From assembly GCA_003252055.1 (NCBI GenBank), contig QKDP01000200.1, positions 1-32,002 on the forward strand: a stretch of 32,002 nt of DNA, given 5' to 3'. This stretch comes from Desulfobacter postgatei (GTDB lineage Bacteria; Desulfobacterota; Desulfobacteria; Desulfobacterales; Desulfobacteraceae). Below are positions 8,546-31,855 of the stretch, one piece after another. Both the position numbers and the translations under genes were made by a program. The notes under the pieces were generated by a model. That model worked only from the letters and a program-made list of their open reading frames with translations, had not been told where the DNA came from and did not search any database. How positions within the stretch are numbered: position 1 is the stretch's first letter; every line of letters begins with the position of its first letter.

Positions 8546-8585
8546 CAGGGAGCTTTTTTTTAGCGCTTGAACGCAAAACCTAAGT

Positions 8586-8707
8586 GTTTGGACGCGAAGT
8601 TGCCCAGATGCAAGGCGCAGAGAAATTTGCAACCGGAGCAACCTTATGGTTGTGAGGCGTTGCAAATTTTTTTGCAACGCGGCAGATGGGTGACTTGTCG
8701 TTCAAAC
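8586..8707 (+). repeat. Dispersed hairpin repeat, copy 1 (rho-rpmE intergenic)
   Basis: GTTTGGACGCGAAGTTGCCCAGATGCAAGGCGCAGAGAAATTTGCAACCGGAGCAACCTTATGGTTGTGAGGCGTTGCAAATTTTTTTGCAACGCGGCAGATGGGTGACTTGTCGTTCAAAC; near-identical to 30938-31058 and foldable into a long nested hairpin. Confidence 0.92.
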
Positions 8708-8755
8708 GCCATTTACGGTCTTTTATAACGAAGACGACAAGGAGTGACGTGTAAG

Positions 8756-9000: not shown

Positions 9001-9046
9001 AAAAGGGGTCTTTGTTCAACAGACTGTTATACAAAGACCCCTTTTT
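9001..9046 (+). terminator. Strong intrinsic terminator after rpmE
   Basis: AAAAGGGGTCTTTGT-tcaacagactgttat-ACAAAGACCCCTTTT(T): perfect 15 bp stem ending in T run. Confidence 0.88.
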
Positions 9047-30890: not shown

Positions 30891-30937
30891 TAATCTCCTT
30901 GTACAAACACTATGTAGTGCGCGACCAAAGCTCCTGT

Positions 30938-31058
30938 GTTTGGACGAAAAGTTGCCCAGATTCAAGGCGCAGAAAAATTTGCAACCGGAGCATACTAAAG
31001 TATGTGAGGATTGTAAATTTTTCTGTAACGCCGCAGATGGGTGACTTTTCGTTCAAAC
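30938..31058 (+). repeat. Dispersed hairpin repeat, copy 2 (AIM24-chaN intergenic)
   Basis: GTTTGGACGAAAAGTTGCCCAGATTCAAGGCGCAGAAAAATTTGCAACCGGAGCATACTAAAGTATGTGAGGATTGTAAATTTTTCTGTAACGCCGCAGATGGGTGACTTTTCGTTCAAAC; homologous end to end with 8586-8707. Confidence 0.93.
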
Positions 31059-31063
31059 TCTAT

Positions 31064-31855
31064 TTAATCTCCGTCCAGCAGGCGTCCAAGACCGCCTAAA
31101 ACAGAACCTTCACCTTTAGCTGTGCCCCCGGTACTTGGCGCATGGCTGATGATACGGTCTGCCAGGCGGGAAAAAGGCAGGCTTTGCAGATAAACATTGC
31201 CGTATCCTTCCAGTGTGGCCAGAAACAAACCTTCGCCGCCGAAAAACATGGATTTAAGCCCGCCTGCCCGCTGGATGTCATATTGAATCCCCTGGGAAAA
31301 GGCCACGATGCAGCCGGTATCCACCATCAGCCTTTCGCCGTTCAGCTCTTTTTTAACGATGGTACCGCCGGCATGAATAAACGCCATGCCGTCACCTTCC
31401 AGGCGCTGGAGAATAAACCCTTCGCCGCCGAAAAAACCGGCCCCAAGTTTTTGGTTAAAGGCAATGGAAACTTTCGTGCCAAGGGCTGCGCACAGAAACG
31501 CATCTTTCTGGCAGATCAGCTGTCCGCCGATGGCGGCCATGTCAACGGGAATAATTTTTCCGGGATAGGGTGCGGAAAAGGCCACCCTTTTTTTATCATG
31601 TGCCTGGTTGGTGAAATGGGTGAGAAACAGGCTTTCACCGGTGAGCGCCCGTTTGCCTGCATTAAAGAGCTTGCCCATAATCCCTTTGTCCGCTTCAGAG
31701 CCGTCCCCCATTTTTGCTTCAAATTCAATACCCTGTTCCATCCAGTTCATGGCACCGGCTTCGGCAATCACGGTTTCGCCGGGATCCAGTTCCACCTCAA
31801 CGGCCTGCATGTCATCCCCAAAAATTTCGTAATCCACTTCATGGCACTGCATCAT
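31064..31855 (-). CDS. TIGR00266/AIM24 family protein
   Basis: [44 protein letters not shown]...[10 protein letters not shown]...[25 protein letters not shown]...[36 protein letters not shown] upstream of ATGATG. Confidence 0.93.

Follow-up and report, generated by a model that had tools for sequence, protein, structure and literature searches.

What is the hairpin-forming sequence that occupies the spacer between rho and rpmE (the L31 gene) in Desulfobacter postgatei and recurs within the same window (the whole stretch of DNA analysed, 32,002 nucleotides), and is its fold that of an RNA or of a piece of mobile DNA? A sequence-only reading had delimited two copies, at 8586-8707 and 30938-31058, and had taken them as a two-copy element with an RNA fold under selection, a case to be judged by a covariance-model search of related Desulfobacterota, a covariation test and an Rfam search.

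Extent and insertion of the repeated unit

Alignment and fold prediction confirmed that the two stretches match over their full length and fold as had been described. Both the copy number and the limits had to be revised, as blastn against the assembly to which the window belongs, 384 contigs totalling 2.79 Mb, recovered 40 copies (matching strand, 76-100% identity), a lower bound that puts the count at 40 or more, and alignment of all copies with their flanks moved the ends, AGTG...CACT, outwards (Table 1). The repeat unit is ~146 bp (146-149 bp), lacks a protein gene and carries terminal inverted repeats, AGTG(CC)TGAACG being paired with CGTTCAAACACT. The ends of copy 1 have decayed to AGCG...CGCC. 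The neighbours of copy 2, both - strand genes, encode a ChaN-type haem-uptake protein and an AIM24-family protein. Directly after rpmE, a near-perfect inverted repeat of 22 bp that includes A and T tracts (9001-9045) is probably the ordinary terminator of that gene.

Table 1. Positions of the two copies and of their parts within the window
Feature	Position	Strand	Basis or remark
Element copy 1, full extent	8562..8710	+	rho-rpmE intergenic; flank consensus and 4-bp duplication statistics, orthologous empty/filled sites
Conserved structured core, copy 1	8598..8695	+	stretch used in alignment A2 and model R1; R1 matches in three phyla
Apical part, copy 1	8635..8657	+	fold and covariation analyses
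Internal loop GGA / GA, copy 1	8635-8637 with 8654-8655
Fixed wobble, copy 1	G8638.U8653
Covarying apical stem CAACC/GGTTG, copy 1	8639-8643 with 8648-8652
Right target duplication ATTT, copy 1	8711..8714	.	left partner 8558-8561 = TTTT
Element copy 2, full extent (AGTG...CTCT)	30916..31061	+	flank consensus
Conserved structured core, copy 2	30950..31046	+	alignment in register with copy 1
Left target duplication ATGT, copy 2	30912..30915	.	right partner 31062-31065 = ATTT, one mismatch

An exact 4-bp direct repeat borders 33 of the 69 Desulfobacter- and Desulfobacula-type copies with recognisable ends. In 1000 shuffles, such repeats averaged 5.95 and never exceeded 14; other lengths suited few of the copies, 7 at 2 bp, none at 3 bp and 1 at 5 bp. 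The duplication has the form ANNT (A..T in 32 of the 33), and a TA target duplication of the mariner/ERIC-like kind was rejected on this measurement. Inspection of orthologous rho-rpmE sites revealed that four congeners are empty (G012, G005, G004 and G006) and three genomes filled (G000, G008 and G009), with the ortholog of copy 1 in G009 having lost its apex and still being bordered by ATTT on both sides. The ~146-bp unit inserts as DNA, as demonstrated by the 4-bp duplications and the empty sites, and the element is therefore very probably of the MITE type. Indeed, the Desulfobacter element displays every MITE-defining property that was tested, except for a known autonomous partner.

The search for such a partner was limited in scope, and did not recover any autonomous relative sharing these ends: among the matches listed in four congeners, no ends formed an inverted pair at a spacing of 0.7-3 kb, and none of the DDE_Tnp_1 insertion sequences sampled in four congeners had matching ends. 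Three further candidates were rejected, as the genes beside half-elements are ordinary genes, AGTGACTGAACG, repeated in G005, lies inside an unrelated insertion sequence whose ends differ, and a 1.3-kb inverted pair in a Salinicola genome represents two separate elements. G005 also holds an insertion sequence with the end CCTGGATTCCCGGC, in about 11 occurrences (G005:C1:177473, 1601406, 2107131 and others), which is unrelated to the element and which, by protein motif, we presume to resemble the IS1380 family.

Several variant copies were encountered. Core-less or internally deleted versions with the same ends exist (e.g. L082, L087 and L099), and L082 (G005:C1:3352581 region) is a simple hairpin, GTTTGAACGGCTCGTTAGAGGAGC-TAAA-GCTCCTCTAACGAGCCGTTCAAAC, possibly a carrier predating acquisition of the core or a separate subfamily. 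L027 (G000:C181:10607-10718) and L034 (G000:C303:3078-3195), both from the window's genome, combine one usual arm with one from a longer variant (GGCTCGTTAGAGGGGCGCATGCCCAC) and look like recombination products of element types, or misassembly. Extra small hairpins of the CCCGATTTATAATTTGG type are seated at the bulged A after UGAGG in L142, L154, L185, L206 and similar Desulfobacter/Desulfobacula copies, and another is found in the left arm of a Halomonadaceae copy (L323, 1050-1260), in all cases leaving the remaining core intact.

The surroundings of the copies were assessed with genes called from ORF length alone, so that single assignments are fallible (copy 1, for example, was scored with a wrong right neighbour): across 58 window-family copies, a gene directed towards the element typically has its stop codon 2-10 bases from the right end of the copy, and same-direction contexts give - strand read-through in 21 cases versus 8. 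A general orientation rule relative to genes was nevertheless rejected, as the Desulfobacula-type loci (- strand read-through 21, + strand 7) stand against Halomonas-type loci (18:10 favouring the + strand) and diverse loci (13 + strand, 17 - strand). The element ends supply a TAG stop, and Halomonadaceae duplications such as CTAA can, as judged by eye, include a stop codon, so that the persistence of copies where genes end suffices to account for the gene-context pattern. Copy positions, also inspected by eye, displayed no clear trend of replication-strand bias.

The conserved core and its fold

The inner ~98 nt, AAGGC..GGA(G)..hairpin..UGAG(G)..CAACG, constitute a core whose distribution reaches beyond that of the element. 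The pattern of fixed loop bases matches in Desulfobacter, Desulfobacula, Halomonadaceae, Methylophilus, Methylovulum, Lysobacterales, Legionellales and Nitrosomonadales genomes. A covariance model (R1), generated from an alignment of 34 diverse cores, detected the core at E <= 1e-4 (the E-values being rough) in Desulfobacterota (68 of 297 genomes, 53 of 199 genera), in Pseudomonadota, to which Billgrantia belongs (79 of 299 genomes), and in the phylum of the MAG Bacteroidetes bacterium 4572_114, probably Bacteroidota (47 of 299 genomes). The search of related Desulfobacterota hence returned a positive answer, plus two further phyla. Third-phylum carriers of 2.0-2.8 Mb resemble, at a guess, Chlorobia. 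Nearly all listed matches span the whole model and many carrier genomes are multi-copy, with copy numbers being lower bounds as up to 13 candidates were scored per genome. We conclude that the core is far older than the element. Using blastn, a single plasmid match was obtained, in a Nitrosomonas plasmid, and no element match in phages.

The same core copy occupies what appears to be the same locus in three genomes of 6-6.7 Mb (L289, L290 and L292, in G416, G420 and G504), immediately past the stop codon of presumably purH, a gene whose product terminates in GMRHFRH; it looks like an old insertion that has long been kept.

The predicted + strand RNA folds reach -65.6 kcal/mol for copy 1 and -63.2 kcal/mol for copy 2 (z = -8.2 and -14.2), with none of 200 shuffles folding as well. 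The preference for the + strand that had been proposed was recovered both with RNA parameters (- strand -43.8 and -45.6 for copies 1 and 2) and with DNA parameters (+ versus - strand, -29.4 versus -24.2 for copy 1 and -33.8 versus -27.3 for copy 2).

Covariation likewise agrees with the sequence-only reading, with regard to the apical stem and for the core at large. In the 34-core alignment, 94.4% of the cells of paired columns are paired, versus 25-47% when partners are slid, and 130 cells carry double changes, versus 9-28. The corresponding figures for 74 diverse R1 hits, an alignment that was fitted to the model and thus favours its pairs, are a score of 0.596 versus at most 0.084, and 406 double-change cells versus 52-100. 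Against a phylogeny-aware null, 13 of the 23 core pairs covary at E < 0.05 (a custom test that combined a FastTree phylogeny with parsimony counts of substitutions and 20 simulated alignments). The top-scoring column pairs overall fall mostly within the structure, and most others in the top twenty extend the outer stem. The pair adjoining the GGA/GA loop flips between C-G (37) and G-C (33), visible only after divergent sequences had been added. The internal loop, previously described as near-invariant, is indeed fixed, as merely one of several fixed non-Watson-Crick features of the + strand that are common to other phyla: GGA/GA, a G.U wobble (core columns 47/118, 61 of 72 sequences), an AAG/N loop, a CAA bulge and a bulged A.

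RNA, single-stranded DNA or a separate module

The evidence on strand and type of nucleic acid is mixed. The 13 covarying pairs comprise 869 Watson-Crick cells, 12 G.U (1.3%) and 13 A.C (1.4%) across the 74 diverse sequences, while in established RNA families G.U is normally far commoner than A.C. Because G.U is as rare as A.C, the covarying pairs behave as Watson-Crick DNA complementarity. Outer-stem columns outside the model show G.U in 67 cells versus A.C in 15, with many of the wobbles fixed within a lineage. In the 60 Desulfobacter-type copies the ratio of G.U to A.C is 51:20 for cells (p = 0.0003, although the cells share ancestry), and 25:14 (p = 0.11) when counted as distinct variants; all five non-Watson-Crick consensus pairs of this type are G.U. 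The fixed + strand wobbles and loops imply that one strand is special and that a single strand folds, and fit + strand RNA and + strand single-stranded DNA equally. Of the RNA-fold interpretation, the dispersed, mobile, structured and strongly covarying character and the absence from Rfam hold, and selection on an RNA fold is not established.

We favour a non-autonomous DNA element of MITE type, the ~146-bp unit of which inserts with the 4-bp ANNT duplication; a DDE transposase acting in trans on the outer ends would presumably mobilise it. Within it, the ~98-nt hairpin core changes its stems by compensation and keeps its loops, bulges and one wobble fixed across phyla, which suggests that the folded strand itself is the conserved object. 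Arms, gene orientation and surrounding genes differ, yet the core keeps its fold; the fold is therefore most likely to benefit the spread or persistence of the element itself, as folded + strand DNA at the time of replication or excision, and not a gene of the host. Survivors lie mostly directly after stop codons, where harm is small. For this combined proposal, a MITE whose folded + strand, probably as single-stranded DNA, serves its own spread, we see an even balance of probability. For a simple MITE one would expect the ends to be conserved and the interior to be unconstrained, the reverse of the situation here, and the fixed + strand wobbles together with the Desulfobacter G.U excess are also expected of an RNA.

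The core may instead be a structured RNA, the + strand transcripts of which fold and are protein-bound or processed, with MITEs carrying the RNA because it is helpful to them or to the host. Strong covariation with fixed loops, the wobble at columns 47/118, the better folding of the + strand and the G.U excess within Desulfobacter all speak for such an RNA, as do the MITE-derived sRNAs known in Coxiella (PMC5896051). Against it speak the lack of G.U preference in the covarying pairs, and the same-direction contexts, which give mainly - strand read-through in Desulfobacter/Desulfobacula and no consistent direction elsewhere. Moreover, copy 1 displayed neither a promoter nor a terminator pattern, and Rfam 15, queried at gathering and permissive thresholds with the window and 30 related loci, returned nothing beyond tRNA, establishing that the element is not catalogued there. 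We therefore consider a structured RNA possible, yet unlikely.

The outer arms raise another alternative, being unrelated between clades. One Pseudomonadota genome (G548) joins the same core to about five arm types. In two third-phylum genomes, 13 of 19 copies have own arms that pair at 13 or more of 16 positions, compared to 5 of 342 mismatched-copy pairs, and the arms of different copies are alike at chance level on average, rendering them locus-specific inverted repeats; several begin directly after a stop codon. A terminator function of the arms was rejected, as the locus-specific arms, upon reading, are without T tract. These arms may have arisen through insertion into a palindrome or through inverse copying of the target. 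The core might be a mobile module in its own right, entering the centres of palindromes or hairpins, or inversely copying its target, and riding in many MITE families. Such behavior would be congruent with the constant core being flanked, in the two genomes, by palindromes that differ from locus to locus and are in several cases perfect, with one core within several end types in G548, with the core-less simple hairpin bearing Desulfobacter ends (L082), and with the right arm of L420, which reads as a gene end with its stop codon. However, the Desulfobacter core and ends act as one unit with a target duplication, and no empty palindrome was found; at the one locus tested, common to three third-phylum species, relatives without the element have unrelated sequence. 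We know of no enzyme for entry into palindromes or for inverse target copying, which also counts against such a module, and we judge it improbable as an account of the core. A broader proposition, doubtful though worth stating, is that the ~98-nt core represents a folded module of ancient origin that is separate from its carrier transposons and hitch-hikes in them. In many phyla, such a module would invade palindromes or else copy its target inversely, a trans-acting enzyme would recognise it in the form of a folded single strand, and its outer arms would be exchanged.

Finally, arm-to-arm correction of an ordinary inverted repeat through quasi-palindrome template switching, yielding covariation without selection on the fold, would agree with the almost exclusively Watson-Crick covarying pairs and the often perfect arms, yet is weakened to the point of being very improbable, since it would erase the mismatches, bulges and wobbles (GGA/GA, G.U, the CAA and A bulges, AAG/N) that all persist in three phyla.

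Known repeat families and significance

The element works like a MITE, and is absent from Rfam 15 and, in terms of exact strings, from the searched papers; the comparisons below are with families as published in outline. Queries with exact strings of several element versions retrieved chance matches only and no relevant paper, with figures, supplements and subscription journals being beyond reach of the search. ERIC of Enterobacteriaceae and Vibrionaceae is similar as a ~127 bp, high-copy intergenic sequence forming one long imperfect stem-loop. ERIC inserts at TA, in contrast to the 4-bp ANNT duplication here, and occurs in other taxa, a distinction drawn from insertion site and host range. 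REP/BIME sequences with their tyrosine transposase share the palindromic, intergenic, high-copy nature and the idea of a strand-specific hairpin, however REPs are units of 20-40 bp with a GTAG or CGTC tag (PMC3733652) and without target duplication, unlike the ~146 bp unit and its 4-bp duplication.

Bacterial MITEs (PMC10969869), among which the Chunjie MITE of Geobacter is named, likewise are shorter than 500 bp, have inverted ends, a short target duplication and no gene, and occur in many intergenic copies, often at gene 3' ends, with a stable predicted hairpin; as a rule, such families are identified from their ends and confined to related hosts, whereas here the interior fold is cross-phylum and the ends vary. 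QMITE1 and QMITE2 of Coxiella burnetii (PMC5896051) are MITEs with a stable fold and a source of sRNA, QMITE2 lying mostly in 3' untranslated regions, but their direct repeats measure 2-3 nt and 7-11 nt, respectively, versus 4 bp here, and QMITE2 differs additionally in holding a GTAG REP. The stem-loop families of Cozzuto et al. 2008 (PMC2267715) are repeated intergenic families with shared predicted secondary structure, and are by description different, 92 families being grouped by species with Desulfobacterota unnamed in the text.

Aggregated, one folded core that is missing from RNA-family catalogues is carried by roughly one in four of the Pseudomonadota and Desulfobacterota genomes sampled and by roughly one in six of those of the third phylum, reversing the usual logic of MITEs in that the interior is kept and the ends are free. 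Model R1 makes copies of the core annotatable in many genomes now. Once explained, the reader of this fold would lead to a widespread RNA- or single-stranded-DNA-binding factor, or to a new mode of spread for non-coding elements.
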